Shown piece after piece: positions 25,053 through 37,196 of a stretch of 64,000 bases of DNA. The position numbers were made by a program, and so were the translations under genes. The DNA is taken from contig AP031382.1 in NCBI GenBank assembly GCA_040371205.1, forward strand, positions 1,919,562 through 1,983,561, given 5' to 3'. The DNA is from Rhodanobacter sp. GTDB lineage: Bacteria; Pseudomonadota; Gammaproteobacteria; Xanthomonadales; Rhodanobacteraceae. Each line of letters starts with the position of its first letter. Position 1 is the first letter of the stretch. The notes beneath the pieces were generated by a model. It saw nothing but the letters and a program-made list of their open reading frames with translations, was not told where the DNA came from and ran no database searches.

Positions 25053-25180
25053 GGCCAAAGGTCTCGCCGGGCAAGGCGTCGAACGACGACGCCCGCCGTC
25101 CGCACCATGGCGCCGCGGGGGCAACCAAGTCTGTTGATGCGGACGCCTCGGGGAAGAGGCTGGCTACTCCCCAATGACAG
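25053..25180 (-). promoter_or_regulatory. yybP-ykoY manganese riboswitch aptamer
   Basis: On the minus strand the leader contains the conserved blocks of the Mn2+-sensing yybP-ykoY family in order: TTGGGGAGTAGCC near 25160-25175, then CATCAACAGACTTGG near 25128-25140, and finally GAGACCTTTGGCC near 25053-25066, with helices between them. These are the two loop elements that form the metal site and the closing strand. It precedes a cation exchanger gene, the expected target type. No alignment score was computed. Confidence 0.85.
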
Positions 25181-25224
25181 GCCGACGATGTTAGCGGCCG
25201 GCGCCAGGGTACGGCAACCCCGGT

Positions 25225-31774: not shown

Positions 31775-33445
31775 ATGCTCATTTCGCTCCATGTCCGCCA
31801 ATTCGCCGTCGTCGAGCAGGCCGAAGTCGACTTCGGCGCCGGCCTTACCGTGGTCAGCGGCGAGACCGGCGCCGGCAAGTCGCTGCTGGTGGACGCCCTG
31901 CTCCTGCTCGCCGGCGCGCGTGCCGACAGCGGCATGGTGCGCACGGGCAGCGACCGCGCGGAACTGTCCGCCGAATTCGACCTGGCCGCCCTGCCCGAGG
32001 CCCGCGCCTGGCTGGCGCGCGAGGAGCTGGACGATGGAGAAGCCTGCCAGTTGCGCCGGGTGATCCGTACCGAGGGCAGCTCGCGCGCCTGGATCAACGG
32101 CCGGCCGGCCAACGCCGGCCAGCTTTCCGAACTCGCTGCCTTGCTGGTGGAGGTCCACGGCCAGCACGAGCACCAGGCCCTGCTCTCCCGCGCCCACCAG
32201 CTCGCCCTGCTCGATGCCTACGCCGGCCACGAAGCGCTGGCTGCGCAGGTACGCGAACTGGCCGTGCAGTGGCGCGAGCTGGGCGCGCGCATCCGCAAGC
32301 TCAGCGGCGGCGGGGACCGCGAGCAGCGGCTCGAACTGCTGCGCCACGAGCTCGCCGAACTGGAGCAATGGTCGCTGCCGCCTGCCGAACTGGCCGAACT
32401 CGAAGCCAGCCACAAGCGCCTGGCCAATGCCGGCCGGCTGGCCGAGGGCGCGGCCGGCGTGGTCGAACTGCTTGACGGCGACAGCGAGTTCGCGCTGCGC
32501 CGCGCGCTCGGCCGCGCCCATGCCGAACTGGGCAAGCTGGCCGCGCTGGACGGGTCCCTGGATCCCGCGCTGGAACTGCTCGACAACGCCGCGATCCAGC
32601 TCGGCGAGGCTGCCGATACGCTGGGTCGCTACGCGCAGGACGTCGACCTCGACCCGGAGCGTTTCACCGCGGTGGACGCCCATCTCGCCCGCCTGCACGA
32701 GCTTGGCCGGCGGCATCGCCTGCCCGTCGCCGAACTCCACGACAAGGCCGCATCATTGCGCGGCGAACTGGCCGAACTGGAAGGCGCCGGCGAAGCGCTG
32801 GAGCAGCTCGTCGCACAACGCGAGCGCACCCGCGGCGAGTACGACCAGGCGGCGGACGCGCTGGGCAAGTCGCGCCGCAAGGCCGCCGACAAGCTGGGCA
32901 AGTCAGTCAGCACGCTGATGAGCGAACTCGGCATGGCCGGCGGCGTACTCAAGGTCGAACTGGAAGCCGCCGACGGCGACGAGCCCGACCCGCAAGGCCG
33001 CGAACGCTGCGAGCTGCTGGTCAGCGCCAACCCCGGCCAGCCGCCGCGCGCCCTGCGCAAGGTGGCCTCCGGCGGCGAACTGGCGCGCATCAGCCTCGCC
33101 ATCGAGGTCGCGACGCTGGGCAACGACAGCGTCGGCACCATGGTGTTCGACGAGGTGGACAGCGGCATCGGCGGCGCCGTGGCCGAAGTGGTGGGCCAGA
33201 AGCTGCGCGCGCTCGGCAGTCAACGTCAGGTGCTGTGCGTCACCCACTTGCCGCAGGTGGCCGCGCAAGGGCACGCGCATTTGTACGTGAGCAAGCACAG
33301 CGAGGGCGGCCACACCCGCACGCAGATCCGGCCGCTGGATGCCGAAGGCCGGCGCGACGAGCTGGCCCGGATGCTGGGCGGCGTGGAGATCACCCGCGAA
33401 ACCCGCGCCCATGCGAAGCAGATGCTGGAGCGTGCGCAGGCCTAG
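31775..33445 (+). CDS. recN: DNA repair protein RecN
   Basis: SMC-like ATPase that acts in double-strand break repair. It has 556 residues from MLISLHVRQF. The Walker A GETGAGKS is at about residues 32-39. A central coiled coil rich in Glu, Leu, Arg and Ala follows, and the C-terminal ATPase half carries VASGGELARISLAIEV (signature) and MVFDEVDSGIGG (Walker B). The final codons overlap the convergent response-regulator gene by 4 bp. I found no clear LexA box in the 129-bp upstream region. Confidence 0.96.
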   Translation: MLISLHVRQFAVVEQAEVDFGAGLTVVSGETGAGKSLLVDALLLLAGARADSGMVRTGSDRAELSAEFDLAALPEARAWLAREELDDGEACQLRRVIRTEGSSRAWINGRPANAGQLSELAALLVEVHGQHEHQALLSRAHQLALLDAYAGHEALAAQVRELAVQWRELGARIRKLSGGGDREQRLELLRHELAELEQWSLPPAELAELEASHKRLANAGRLAEGAAGVVELLDGDSEFALRRALGRAHAELGKLAALDGSLDPALELLDNAAIQLGEAADTLGRYAQDVDLDPERFTAVDAHLARLHELGRRHRLPVAELHDKAASLRGELAELEGAGEALEQLVAQRERTRGEYDQAADALGKSRRKAADKLGKSVSTLMSELGMAGGVLKVELEAADGDEPDPQGRERCELLVSANPGQPPRALRKVASGGELARISLAIEVATLGNDSVGTMVFDEVDSGIGGAVAEVVGQKLRALGSQRQVLCVTHLPQVAAQGHAHLYVSKHSEGGHTRTQIRPLDAEGRRDELARMLGGVEITRETRAHAKQMLERAQA

Positions 33446-34080
33446 CCGGCGGCGGTCGGCAGCAGGCCGCGCTCGCTGGCCATGCGGTACAGCTCCAATT
33501 CCGAGCCCGCATTGAGCTTGCCCATCACGCTGGCGCGATGGATGTAGACAGTCTTCTGGCCGATGCCAAGCTCTGCCGCCACCTGCTTGGGCGTCTTGCC
33601 GCAGGCCAGCAGCAGGAACACCTCGTGTTCGCGGGCGGTGAGGCGGTGCAGCGGATCGAGTACCGACTCCGGCTGCTCGGCGCGGCGCTGGCGCAGGTCC
33701 GAACTGAGGAAGCGCTCGCCCTGCATCACCGCACGCAATCCCGCCACCAGTTCCTCCGGCGCCACACCCTTGGTCACGTAGCCGCTTGCGCCGCGGCGCA
33801 GGGCTTCGGACACGTAGGGTTCGCCATCATGCATGCTCAGCACCACGATATGCGTGTCCGGCGCCACGCTGCGCAGATGCTCGATCAGCGGCAGGCCGCT
33901 GCCGTCGGGCAGCGAGAGATCCAGCGCCACCAGGTCGGGCCGATGCTGCGCCACCGCTTCCACGGCATCGTCCGCGCTGCGGCATTCGCCCACCACCTTG
34001 AGATCGGGCTCCAGCCCGATCAGCCGCTTGAAGCCTTCGCGCACGATGGCGTGGTCATCGACGAGGACAATGCTGTACAT
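33442..34080 (-). CDS. LuxR/NarL-family response regulator
   Basis: Two-component response regulator of 212 residues. The receiver domain has the acidic pair DD at residues 8-9, the phospho-acceptor Asp54 (ALDLSLPDG) and a conserved Lys near residue 104 (GYVTKGVAP). The C-terminal LuxR-type helix-turn-helix has LTAREHEVFLLLACGKTPKQ, then AAELGIGQKTVYIHRASVM. The partner kinase is encoded divergently 133 bp away. Targets are unknown; a structured GGA-rich RNA gene beside the kinase is a plausible candidate because GacA/UvrY regulators of this class control such RNAs. Confidence 0.92.
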   Translation of the reverse strand: MYSIVLVDDHAIVREGFKRLIGLEPDLKVVGECRSADDAVEAVAQHRPDLVALDLSLPDGSGLPLIEHLRSVAPDTHIVVLSMHDGEPYVSEALRRGASGYVTKGVAPEELVAGLRAVMQGERFLSSDLRQRRAEQPESVLDPLHRLTAREHEVFLLLACGKTPKQVAAELGIGQKTVYIHRASVMGKLNAGSELELYRMASERGLLPTAAG

Positions 34081-34213: not shown

Positions 34214-35827
34214 ATGTACCATCGCGGCATGCGCAACAAGCCCTTCCGCTTTCTGCACTCCGGCCCCCTGCTGGGCATGGCCTACCTGCTGCTTTGGCTG
34301 CTGCTGCAACCGACTGCGCAACCGTATTGGATGCTGCCCTACGGCCTGCGTTTCGGCGCGTTGTTGTTGCTGCCAACGCGCCATTGGGGCTGGCTGCTGG
34401 GAGCGGAACTGGCCGCCTCTGCCGGCACGGGCCTGGACGGCGGCCTGCCGATGGATTGGCACGCTTTGCTGCTGGGCGAACTGCCTGGGCTGTTGACCAC
34501 GGCGGCAGGCATATGGCTGCTGCGCCGGCTCAACCCGCATGTCGGAGCCAATCTGGACAACCCGCAGGACGCCGCGCGTCTGTTGCTGTCCGCGGCGCTG
34601 GTTGTGCTGGCCACCATCGCGGTGACCATGATGGTGTCCCTCGTGGCACATGGAGTCGCCATCCAGGAGGCGCTGGTCGACATGCCGGGCAACCGGCTGC
34701 TGGGCGACTATCTAGGCGTGCTGTTGGTCTTTCCCGTGCTGGTGCTGCTGTTGCGCGCCCCGCCGAGCCGCCAGGCCATGGCGAGCCTGTTGCGGGACGG
34801 GCTGCTGGTGCTGCTGCCTTCTATCGCCATCCTGCTGGTGCTGGAACGCACCGCGGTGCATCCCCAATTCGCCCACGCACTGTCGCTGGCGCCGGTACTG
34901 TTCTTCGCGTTCCGCCATGGCTGGCGTGGAGCGGCGCTGGCGATGCTCGCGTGCTGCCTGGGCACGACGCTGTCCGACCAGCAGTTGGGCCATGCGCCGT
35001 CGGCAGCCGACTACCTGTTTCTTGCCGTGGCCGGCAGCGGCGCGCTGATGCTGGGCTCAGCCACCGACGCCCTGCGTCGCAGCAAGCTGCGCGTGGCCGA
35101 GCAAAACACCCACCTCGCTACAGTCAACCGCCGGCTGGACCAATTGGCACAGCAGTTGCGCGCCGCCGCCCGCGGCAACCTGCAGGCGGAGGAAAACCAG
35201 CGCCGCCACATGGCCGCCGAACTCCACGACGAGCTGGGCCAGAACATCACGGCGATCCAGACCCACATGAAACTCGCGCAGGCTCGCCTGCAGCAAGCGG
35301 GCCTGGAAGACATCGGCGCCTCGATCAACGGCATCCTCACCCACATGCGCCGTGCCCTGCACCGCCTGCTGGACGACCTGCGCCCCGCCGTGCTGGACGA
35401 ATTCGGCCTGCTGCGCGCGCTGGACGAGGGGCCGATCCGCGACCTGTTGAAGGCGGCCGGCATCCACTACTCCACGGAACTGCACGGCGACCCGCGCCTG
35501 CTCGACGACGACACCCGCACCACGGTCTACCGTTTGGCCCAGGAAAGCGCGACCAATGCGGTAAAGCATGCGCGAGCCAGCGAATTCCGCCTGCGCCTGC
35601 GCATCGGCGAACGCCATGACGCGGTCCTCGCCTTGCTCGATCTGCGCGACGACGGCATCGGCCTGCCCGAACAACCGCCGCGCGGCGGCCGCGGCATGCA
35701 GGGCATGCGCGACCGCGTGACTTCGCTCGGCGGCGTGTTCCGTCTGCGGCCAACCTCGCAAGGGGTCCACTTGCGTGTATTGCTGCGAAGCAACAACGAC
35801 TCGTCCGTCACACTTCGGACGATCTAG
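34214..35827 (+). CDS. Membrane sensor histidine kinase (HisKA_3, MASE1-like sensor)
   Basis: A 537-residue kinase. Residues about 15-285 form a multi-helix membrane domain that resembles MASE1-type sensors. A coiled-coil linker leads to the NarL-family dimerisation domain with the phospho-acceptor His338 in HMAAELHDELGQNITAIQ. The C-terminal ATPase has the N box (ESATNAVKHARAS) and the G boxes DDGIGLPE and GRGMQGMRDRV. Start at 34229 (MRNKPFRF) is an alternative. It is divergent from its response regulator; the pair sits between recN and fur, where enterics have no such genes. The signal is unknown. Confidence 0.9.
   Translation: MYHRGMRNKPFRFLHSGPLLGMAYLLLWLLLQPTAQPYWMLPYGLRFGALLLLPTRHWGWLLGAELAASAGTGLDGGLPMDWHALLLGELPGLLTTAAGIWLLRRLNPHVGANLDNPQDAARLLLSAALVVLATIAVTMMVSLVAHGVAIQEALVDMPGNRLLGDYLGVLLVFPVLVLLLRAPPSRQAMASLLRDGLLVLLPSIAILLVLERTAVHPQFAHALSLAPVLFFAFRHGWRGAALAMLACCLGTTLSDQQLGHAPSAADYLFLAVAGSGALMLGSATDALRRSKLRVAEQNTHLATVNRRLDQLAQQLRAAARGNLQAEENQRRHMAAELHDELGQNITAIQTHMKLAQARLQQAGLEDIGASINGILTHMRRALHRLLDDLRPAVLDEFGLLRALDEGPIRDLLKAAGIHYSTELHGDPRLLDDDTRTTVYRLAQESATNAVKHARASEFRLRLRIGERHDAVLALLDLRDDGIGLPEQPPRGGRGMQGMRDRVTSLGGVFRLRPTSQGVHLRVLLRSNNDSSVTLRTI
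35801..35822. repeat. Inverted repeat upstream of the GGA-rich RNA gene
   Basis: A perfect 7-bp inverted repeat (TCGTCCG / CGGACGA) with an 8-bp spacer spans the last codons of the kinase gene. It is centred about 63 bp before the presumed RNA start, where an activator site for a LuxR-type regulator would be expected; it could equally be a hairpin at the end of the kinase mRNA. Confidence 0.4.
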
Positions 35828-35874
35828 GAAATTTTCCGATACCCAGAGCGTGAAAGCTTCGTTAGGATCGGTTC

Positions 35875-36064
35875 ATCGATGTGGGGGAGCCGCCATCGTG
35901 AGATGGCGTACCGGAGTCCTCGTGGGGACGGCGACTCCGGAAAGATGGCAGGATGCTGTCTGGTCGTTACCTTGGAGCCGTGCGAGCGAGCAATTCGCCG
36001 CACCGATTCCAGCAGGTACGAGGCAATCGCGAGGTGGACAGGAGTCCTCCCTCGCGATTTTTTT
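35875..36064 (+). ncRNA. Candidate structured GGA-rich small RNA (CsrA/RsmA-binding type)
   Basis: The 359-bp gap between the kinase and fur genes holds no supported protein gene but a highly structured RNA. A 7-bp stem with a GUGA tetraloop (35891-35908) is followed by an 8-bp stem CCGGAGUC/GACUCCGG (35911-35940). A compound arm pairs 35965-35976 with 36008-36020 and encloses an inner stem (35980-36003). Last is a 10-bp terminator stem (36025-36034 with 36050-36059) and seven T residues. Eight GGA motifs occur; CAGGAUG lies in a possible hexaloop (35949-35955), and AGGA (36040-36043) is the tetraloop at the tip of the terminator hairpin. This pattern fits CsrB/RsmZ-type RNAs. The 5' end is a guess from a weak TAGGAT (35863-35868). 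No downstream gene is on this strand, so a riboswitch is unlikely. Confidence 0.65.
36025..36064 (+). terminator. Terminator of the GGA-rich RNA
   Basis: The 10-bp stem AATCGCGAGG / CCTCGCGATT, whose loop forms a further GGAC/GTCC mini-stem, is followed by a run of seven T (36058-36064). It is a strong plus-strand intrinsic terminator about 230 bp past the kinase stop. Confidence 0.9.
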
Positions 36065-36186
36065 ATGCGCGCGCTGCGCGACTGCGCTTCTGTTTGCAGC
36101 CCATGCCGGCCTGGCGGCCGGCGCCAAGCCGCGCGAACGCATGCTTCAAGGAGTGAAATCCGCTGCCGGGCCGGGATGGCGCCAGG

Positions 36187-36615
36187 TCAGCCCTTGCGCG
36201 TGCCGCCGCGATGCTTGGGGCGCACGTAAAGCACCAGGCTGTGATCCTGGATCACGTAGCCGTGGCGCGCGGCGACTTCGTGCTGCAGCCGCTCGATCTC
36301 CTCGCTGACGAACTCGATCACTTTTCCGCTGTCCACATCGATCATGTGATCGTGGTGCTTGCCGCGGTCGAGTTCGTAGACGGCCTGGCCGCCCTCGAAA
36401 TTGTGCTTGGCGACGATGCCGGCCGCCTCGAACTGGGTAAGCACGCGGTATACCGTCGCCAGGCCGATGTCTTCCTGGTGGGCGAGCAGCTTCTTGTAGA
36501 CATCCTCGGCCGTGAGGTGGTTGCCCTCCTCCTCGTCGAAGATCTGCAGGATGCGCATGCGCGGATGGGTCACCTTGAGGCCGACCCGACGCAGTTCCTG
36601 GGTTTCCTGTTCCAT
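36187..36615 (-). CDS. fur: Ferric uptake regulator Fur
   Basis: Iron-responsive repressor of 142 residues. The winged helix (LKVTHPRMRILQIF, then YRVLTQFEAAGIV) and the metal region KHHDHMIDVDSGKVIEF are conserved. The structural-zinc CxxC pair of E. coli Fur is replaced here by Asp and Ser residues (IDVDSG), as in Pseudomonas Fur, so regulation relies on the His/Glu sites. It is divergent from bamE with 80 bp between them, the fur-omlA arrangement known in Xanthomonas. Downstream it converges on the GGA-rich RNA gene. Confidence 0.97.
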   Translation of the reverse strand: MEQETQELRRVGLKVTHPRMRILQIFDEEEGNHLTAEDVYKKLLAHQEDIGLATVYRVLTQFEAAGIVAKHNFEGGQAVYELDRGKHHDHMIDVDSGKVIEFVSEEIERLQHEVAARHGYVIQDHSLVLYVRPKHRGGTRKG

Positions 36616-36695
36616 CGCAGCTACCTCTCGACGGCGCGGTGATGCCGAAGCGGTAGTGTATCATCCGACTCCTTCACGATCTGGACGCAACACGC

Positions 36696-37196
36696 ATGCA
36701 CAAGCTGATCACCCTGCCGGTCGTCGCCGCGCTGGCGCTCGCCGTCTCCGGCTGCCACCTGGTCTACACGCAGGACGTGCGGCAGGGCAACTTGCTCGAC
36801 AAGAACATCGACCAGAAGGCGGTGGATCAGCTCAAACCCGGCCTGACCAAGCGCCAGGTGCTGCTGCTGGTGGGCACGCCCTCGGTGGCTTCGCCGTTCG
36901 ACCAGAGCCGCTGGGACTACGTGTCCACCTATTCGCACCGCGGCGGCCCGATGCAGGTCAGCACCATGACCCTGTACTTCGACAACGACACCCTGGTCCG
37001 CGTCGAGGGCAGTCCCTACCTCGAAAGCAACAAGAACCTGCTGAAGGAAAGCAAGAAGCTCAACGCCAACTACTCGGTCAATGACACGAAGGGCGACAAG
37101 GACATGAGCGGCAAGGACAGCAAGGATTCCGGCGGATTCGGCAGCGGCGGCGACAACAACAACAACAACAACAGCGGCGGCGACAGCAGCCACTGA
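36696..37196 (+). CDS. bamE: Outer membrane protein assembly factor BamE (OmlA/SmpA)
   Basis: Lipoprotein of the BAM complex that inserts beta-barrels into the outer membrane. It has 166 residues, a signal peptide and lipobox LAVSGC with Cys20 as the lipidated residue. The BamE core follows: GLTKRQVLLLVGTPSV and the RWDYVSTYSHRGG strand pair. Beyond about residue 125 there is a low-complexity tail rich in Asp, Lys, Ser, Gly and Asn that is absent from the E. coli protein. Its place next to rnfH-ratA-smpB matches the conserved recN-bamE-rnfH-ratA-smpB region. Confidence 0.95.
   Translation: MHKLITLPVVAALALAVSGCHLVYTQDVRQGNLLDKNIDQKAVDQLKPGLTKRQVLLLVGTPSVASPFDQSRWDYVSTYSHRGGPMQVSTMTLYFDNDTLVRVEGSPYLESNKNLLKESKKLNANYSVNDTKGDKDMSGKDSKDSGGFGSGGDNNNNNNSGGDSSH

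Follow-up and report, generated by a model that had tools for sequence, protein, structure and literature searches.

A conserved structured RNA gene between a histidine kinase gene and fur in Rhodanobacteraceae, a candidate CsrA-sequestering small RNA

Introduction

Small RNAs (sRNAs) of the CsrA-sequestering class, such as CsrB and RsmX/Y/Z, are recognized by the motif that CsrA prefers, A(N)GGA in the loop of a hairpin (PMC4066749). No CsrB or RsmX-Z homologue has been found in the sequenced members of Xanthomonas, and RsmU, the RsmA-binding sRNA of Xanthomonas campestris, is a fragment of the 3' untranslated region (3' UTR) of the comEA mRNA that is reported to be restricted to that genus (PMC7694677). 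Rsm RNAs have been predicted in other bacteria, with Xanthomonas, Dyella, Rhodanobacter and Stenotrophomonas not named in the main text of that work (PMC5568370). A further sRNA of Xanthomonas, sX13, represses mRNAs that carry 4G motifs by means of its C-rich loops and does not need Hfq (PMC3771888). Here we describe an RNA gene from a 64,000-nucleotide (nt) stretch of a Rhodanobacter sp. genome (contig AP031382.1, positions 1,919,562 to 1,983,561; hereafter the window), situated between the genes of a histidine kinase (HK) and of Fur. It is almost certainly a genuine sRNA gene and occurs family-wide in the Rhodanobacteraceae, and comparison of its homologues suggests that it probably encodes a CsrA/RsmA-sequestering RNA that is activated by the UhpAB-like two-component pair encoded beside it. 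Searches of open-licence literature turned up no description of this RNA, nor of any CsrA-antagonist RNA from the Rhodanobacteraceae.

Structure, conservation and distribution of the RNA

The stop codons of the HK gene (35827) and of the convergent fur gene (36187) enclose a gap of 359 nt. That a stand-alone structured RNA gene of about 190 nt occupies this gap is strongly supported by its deep conservation, by covariation, by a promoter box at a fixed distance, by a terminator and by the lack of a conserved reading frame. The region 35860-36064 folds with a minimum free energy of -97.7, compared with -77.5 +/- 4.6 for 200 shuffled sequences (z -4.4), only one of which was equally good. The predicted fold has a GUGA-capped stem, an 8-bp stem enclosing an inner stem-loop, a compound arm that bears a nested stem, and a terminator hairpin tipped by AGGA and followed by seven T residues. 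These are the elements that the original prediction, made from the letters of the window alone, had described, including CAGGAUG in hairpin 3 (35949-35955) and the AGGA of the terminator (36040-36043). In line with its claim that the gap holds no supported protein gene, no reading frame is conserved among 29 aligned copies. The one small open reading frame considered, from an ATG at position 5 of the RNA (ATGTGG), was rejected, ranging from 18 to 65 residues over these rows with early stops and changes of frame. A mechanical terminator scan of 35500-36700 did not list the terminator of the RNA.

Covariation was assessed in an alignment of 29 of the 30 copies recovered by BLAST, built without fitting to a structure; the remaining copy, from genome G020, is too diverged and was handled separately. 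In this 29-row alignment, 88.1% of cells pair, compared with 80.2% when the letters of the 3' side are shuffled and 34-45% when the partners are slid, and both partners change in 28 of 50 pairs, compared with 16.0 and 9-12, respectively. The lower terminator stem is badly aligned there (60% paired). A 79-row alignment fitted to the covariance model has both-sided changes in 39 of 49 pairs (26.2 when shuffled). The inner hairpin of arm 4, GAGCAAYUC, is almost invariant and contains no GGA, and neither CsrA nor any other reading discussed below accounts for it.

The RNA had been called an orphan in the original prediction, a label that its distribution contradicts. BLAST with the region gave matches in 30 of 61 relatives and 17 of 41 genera, all of them Rhodanobacteraceae, and in each of these 30 loci the RNA has HK on one side and fur on the other. 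The covariance search across the family that had been proposed as a check bears the prediction out, with 96 of the 125 Rhodanobacteraceae genomes sampled matching and the stems conserved with compensatory change. Over the whole order, 97 of 398 genomes match, each once, the additional one being a partial match of 21.5 bits outside the family; this search ran with stricter filters, so that weak copies may be missed. Among 84,980 named species genomes, a search by sequence pattern found 101 stretches, and the 80 that were listed carry nearly all the titles Rhodanobacter, Dyella, Luteibacter, Frateuria, Fulvimonas, Oleiagrimonas, Pinirhizobacter or unnamed metagenome-assembled genomes (MAGs) of the order. 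The pattern fixes UGUGGGGGAGYC and CGUGGGGACG, so that the conservation of these two elements in the 80 loci follows from the search itself; neither hairpin 3 nor the terminator entered into the selection. The covariance model confirms 79 of the 80 and fails at L179, a Dermatophilaceae MAG, which is a chance match to the pattern. Two loci labelled as Thiobacillaceae and Eremiobacteraeota MAGs (L143 and L180) hold full copies of the RNA (160-161 bits) and are probably misbinned contigs.

Conserved A(N)GGA loops and the case for CsrA

The case for CsrA rests on where GGA is kept. Among 77 homologues, the 79-row alignment less two rows cut short, the apical loop of the terminator reads ACAGGAGU in 73, ACAUGGAGU in two, and GCAGGAGC and ACAAGGAGU in one each, such that all 77 conform to A(N)GGA. 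By comparison, of 110 further terminator-like hairpins, drawn from the window and the 80 loci, ten have GGA in the loop and a single one A(N)GGA. The loop of hairpin 3 is CAGGAUG in 48 of the homologues, CAGGAAG in 11, CAGGACG in seven, CAGGAGG in one and of another sequence in ten; CAGGA is thus found in 67 of 77 and GGA in 76 of 77, while the base that follows varies freely. The repeat of CsrB matches the sequence CAGGA[UAC]G of this loop. These homologues share descent, and the motif counts are not independent of one another.

Seventeen diverged syntenic copies from distant genera, picked by HK and box alone, provide the better test. Sixteen of the 17 are predicted to have one or more A(N)GGA hairpin loops, on new stems, with loops that include CACGGAUC, ACAAGGACGU, ACAUGGAGU, CCAAGGAGG, GCAGGAAGC, UCAGGACGA, AAGGAC and AUGGAG. 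The host genome (G000) encodes one canonical CsrA (92.2 bits, cut-off 27). Several conserved loops that probably display A(N)GGA, in a host with CsrA, are the features expected of the CsrA-sequestering class, and the comparison supports the CsrA reading. The resemblance to such RNAs claimed in the original prediction holds by comparison of loops and host, but not by the Rfam thresholds for Csr/Rsm families given below.

A dedicated promoter box and the adjacent two-component pair

The most conserved element upstream of the RNA in the 29-row alignment is TAGGAA-N3-TTCCRATA, an imperfect inverted repeat of which the window contains one exact site (0.03 expected). In the 398 genomes of the order, the exact form TAGGAAWTNTTCCRAT occurs at 89 sites in 88 genomes, and a reversed control at none. 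Eighty-two of the 89 lie 49-51 nt from the start of the RNA (one at 49, 69 at 50 and 12 at 51), while the distance from the box to the end of HK varies. The other seven comprise one that precedes the G020 copy, one from G023 and five from genomes beyond the family. Two of the five extra-family sites (L072 and L073, the others being in G076, G095 and G111) have no RNA of this kind downstream. The site in G023 (G023:C41:218714-218729, L256), a second exact box, lies at the very end of a different gene for a LuxR-type regulator and is not followed by the RNA.

The alignment favours a transcription start near 35875, which would make 35825-35868 the promoter. The centre of the box would then fall near -43, where a bound activator would replace the -35 element. 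Terminator and promoter-like elements are both conserved in sequence, and a consensus sigma-70 scan of 35500-36700 found no match and did not pick up the -10 either; such a result is expected of an activator-dependent promoter, of which it is no proof.

The candidate activator is encoded next to HK. The nearest model to HK is UhpB (182.7 bits, below the cut-off of 408), and the response regulator (RR) scores 137-163 bits against the NCBIfam models MctR, UvrY, NarL and UhpA (MctR 163, UvrY 140, UhpA 137), none above its cut-off. The original prediction was correct that a LuxR-type pair adjoins the RNA, but placed it in the GacA/UvrY class; the pair is UhpAB-like, and a more GacA-like regulator is found elsewhere in the genome. 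Co-occurrence and synteny support a link between the predicted sRNA and this pair. Among the 112 family genomes in both surveys with known HK status, a table that excludes 45 HK-negative genomes lacking listed names, 89 have both RNA and HK, none the RNA only, six HK only and 17 neither. Three of the HK-only genomes, G015, G020 and G250, have the box and a diverged RNA. Of 19 stretches downstream of HK, 14 contain the box and those of G377, G418, G410, G374 and G436 do not, in G436 because the contig ends. The order RR-HK-gap-fur is kept in all five longer, diverged loci, the only ones in which the position of RR was examined, as it falls beyond the ends of the 30 loci.

The same RNA could be a CsrA sponge under another activator, with HK and RR merely a stable neighbour. 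The G000 genome encodes a LuxR-type regulator at G000:C1:1904167-1904799 (L102) that scores 218.5 bits against the UvrY/SirA/GacA model (cut-off 280), compared with 139 for the RR of the window, and GacA-type control of something in this genome is possible. That such a regulator rather than the local pair governs the RNA is nonetheless unlikely, given that none of the 89 RNA-bearing genomes lacks HK while 17 lack both, and that the box is a different inverted repeat from the Gac box. The consensus of the latter, which we take to be TGTAAG-N6-CTTACA, has no match with up to three mismatches near the gene, and its three matches in the window, all beyond 61000, compare with 4.5 expected.

The UGGGG elements and alternative explanations

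Several observations weigh against CsrA sequestration under control of the adjacent pair. The eight GGAs on which the original prediction leaned are present, but their number is near chance for the composition (dinucleotide shuffling gives 5.6 on average, P 0.13, and mononucleotide shuffling 4.25, P 0.04) and is therefore set aside as evidence; four are predicted to be unpaired in the window copy, compared with 1.7 (P 0.07), and only about four occupy conserved, exposed positions. The hairpin-3 GGA is absent from L131, a Luteibacter MAG copy (CAGGGUAG), and from the diverged G020 copy, which has five A(N)GGA motifs in its sequence and none in a predicted hairpin loop. No Rfam family is found in the gap at the gathering threshold, and the best score from clan CL00106 in the window is far below its cut-off (RsmW, 15.5 bits against 52), as are those of the diverged copies (rsmX, 21.3 against 56; RsmV, 19.1 against 100). 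With regard to the pair, the box varies, having no exact match in 14 of the 96 genomes that the model finds, and no box was seen downstream of HK in G374, G377 and G394, which have HK but no match to the model, although the HK of G374 and G394 is only 39-40% identical. Finally, five diverged copies (G250, G411, G416, G421 and G444) retain UGGGG but no GGA in the loop that resembles that of hairpin 2, and CsrA therefore does not account for all of the conservation.

In the 29-row alignment, the two UGGGG elements (5' end, UGUGGGGGAG; apex of hairpin 2, GUGGGGAC) match or exceed the GGA loops in conservation, and 15 of the 17 diverged copies have a G4 loop on a hairpin. A partner with C-rich loops is at hand in a relative of sX13 (RF02232) at G000:C1:535193-535305 on the minus strand (L226; 41.6 bits, cut-off 50), which has three such loops and adjoins the DNA polymerase I reading frame (polA locus; 545 bits to DNA_pol_A). 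Two of its loops are CUCCCC and ACCCCC, the former an exact complement of GGGGAG in the 5' end of the RNA. The relative is present in all 33 Rhodanobacteraceae genomes tested, six of which lack the HK-fur RNA, in both genomes tested of family f2 and in none of three genomes from other families. G411, G020 and G013 have two sX13-like matches each, the pair in G411 (G411:C69:11431-11956) being about 400 bases apart on the same strand. The sX9 model (RF02228) found no match here, and likewise none in control genomes.

Pairing of the RNA with sX13 is possible but is not indicated by co-occurrence, as sX13 is also present in the six family genomes without the RNA. Matched change between the flanks of the 4G elements and the sX13 loops was sought by eye in 29 of the 30 loci (L249 being too short), with nothing clear emerging. 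It is conceivable, if doubtful, that the RNA is a sponge with two heads, its A(N)GGA loops serving CsrA and its two UGGGG elements pairing with the C-rich loops of sX13; the GGA-free UGGGG loops, the sX13 loops of G000 and the exact complement GGGGAG/CUCCCC suggest this arrangement, under which one dedicated sensor would release both the CsrA and the sX13 regulons. Somewhat less probable still is a base-pairing sRNA proper, whose exposed UGGGG loops would act on C-rich RNAs, with the GGAs incidental and CsrA not the main partner. The 5' UGGGGG and the hairpin-2 UGGGG loop being the best conserved elements of all, the diverged copies that keep G4 loops, five of them with no GGA in that loop, and the presence in all 33 family genomes tested of a C-loop sRNA whose published targets bear 4G motifs (PMC3771888) would suit such an RNA, which would leave unexplained the terminator A(N)GGA of all 77 homologues and the CAGGAN loop of hairpin 3; it is also opposed by the presence of sX13 in all six tested family genomes without the RNA, and by the lack of any matched flank change seen by eye. 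Least probable by far is that the RNA comes from the HK mRNA as a stable 3' UTR fragment, or is a small leaderless reading frame, rather than having a gene of its own. In the window the box does overlap the stop codon of HK, and an ATG lies at +5; but the box and the -10-like element keep a fixed distance from the RNA (49-51 nt in 82 genomes) and not from the end of HK, the frame from ATGTGG varies in length as given above, and it is base pairs rather than codons that are conserved.

Organization of the locus

Features of the locus are collected in Table 1. The RNA is not arranged as a cis-regulatory leader or riboswitch would be, as a terminator closes it and fur, which comes next in all 30 loci, is oriented towards it in the window. 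Elsewhere in the window, a yybP-ykoY manganese riboswitch is found at 25069-25184 on the minus strand (54.6 bits, threshold 45).

Table 1. Features at and around the HK-fur gap, in window coordinates
Feature	Position	Strand	Basis or remarks
NarL/LuxR-type RR, putative activator	33442..34080	-	Pfam Response_reg + GerE
MASE1-HisKA_3 HK, UhpB-like, putative sensor for the sRNA	34214..35827	+	Pfam, NCBIfam
Putative RR box TAGGAA-ATT-TTCCGATA, imperfect inverted repeat over HK stop codon, centre about -43	35825..35841	+	Predicted function
Putative -10, TAGGAT (family TA-nn-[AC]T)	35863..35868	+	Conserved in 29-row alignment
sRNA gene, about 190 nt, predicted start	35875..36064	+	BLAST relatives, covariance model, covariation
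Unpaired 5' end AUCGAUGUGGGGGAGC, UGGGGG (4G) element and one GGA	35875..35890	+	Almost invariant in 29 rows
Hairpin 1, 7 bp in window copy, GUGA loop	35891..35908	+	5/6 modelled pairs vary on both sides; 100% of cells paired
Hairpin 2, apical GUGGGGAC at 35922-35929	35911..35940	+	10/13 pairs vary on both sides; octamer in 29/29 rows
Hairpin 3, loop CAGGAUG, putative CsrA site	35943..35961	+	Loop GGA 76/77; stem covaries
Compound arm 4, inner hairpin GCGAGCAAUUCGC at 35986-35998	35964..36021	+	Outer stem, 5/7 pairs vary on both sides
Intrinsic terminator, apical CAGGAG at 36039-36044 (putative CsrA site), T7 at 36058-36064	36026..36064	+	Loop A(N)GGA 77/77
fur, convergent; regarded as context rather than as part of the system	36187..36615	-	NCBIfam NF006999, 171.5 bits (cut-off 146)

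Proposed mechanism and significance

Taken with the caution due to a case built on comparison of genomes, we infer the following course of events for a CsrA-sequestering RNA under the adjacent pair. The active MASE1 HK would signal to its partner, the NarL-type RR, which would bind the TAGGAA-N3-TTCC box at about -43 and bring about transcription of an sRNA of some 190 nt, Rho-independently terminated and acting like CsrB or RsmX/Y/Z. Hairpin 3 and the terminator hairpin would each display A(N)GGA in the loop, further GGAs would be offered at the 5' end and in the loop of hairpin 2, and the motifs so displayed would titrate CsrA dimers off mRNAs.

Were this correct, then beside the gap reported for Xanthomonas (PMC7694677) the neighbouring family Rhodanobacteraceae would possess a Csr RNA of its own, one that stands outside Rfam. 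It would be wired to an adjacent sensor pair whose box occurs almost only at the sRNA gene, and both its input, the MASE1 sensor, and its output, CsrA activity, could be read with one reporter. The diverged copies would further provide an example of turnover in which the A(N)GGA loops stay while their stems and flanks are rebuilt.

Comparison with known regulatory RNAs

RsmU of X. campestris resembles the HK-fur RNA as an RsmA-binding sRNA with three or four GGAs from the same order (PMC7694677), which is what the latter is predicted to be. The two differ in origin, RsmU being derived from the comEA 3' UTR and the present RNA from a gene between HK and fur, and the latter is not assigned to RsmU. 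With sX13 (RF02232), it shares the order and the character of a highly structured sRNA, and the C-rich loops of sX13 are complementary to its UGGGG elements; sX13 is, however, encoded by a separate gene at the polA locus, and its loops are rich in C rather than G. The closest likeness is to CsrB/CsrC, RsmX/Y/Z, RsmV and RsmW, with which it shares the form of a stand-alone, terminated RNA (as predicted here) with several A(N)GGA hairpin loops, a position beside or under a LuxR/NarL-type two-component system, and a host with CsrA. From these it is set apart by its lack of an Rfam match and of a canonical Gac box, by having only about four exposed, conserved GGAs, by the addition of conserved UGGGG elements, and by an activator that would be UhpA-like and encoded alongside it.
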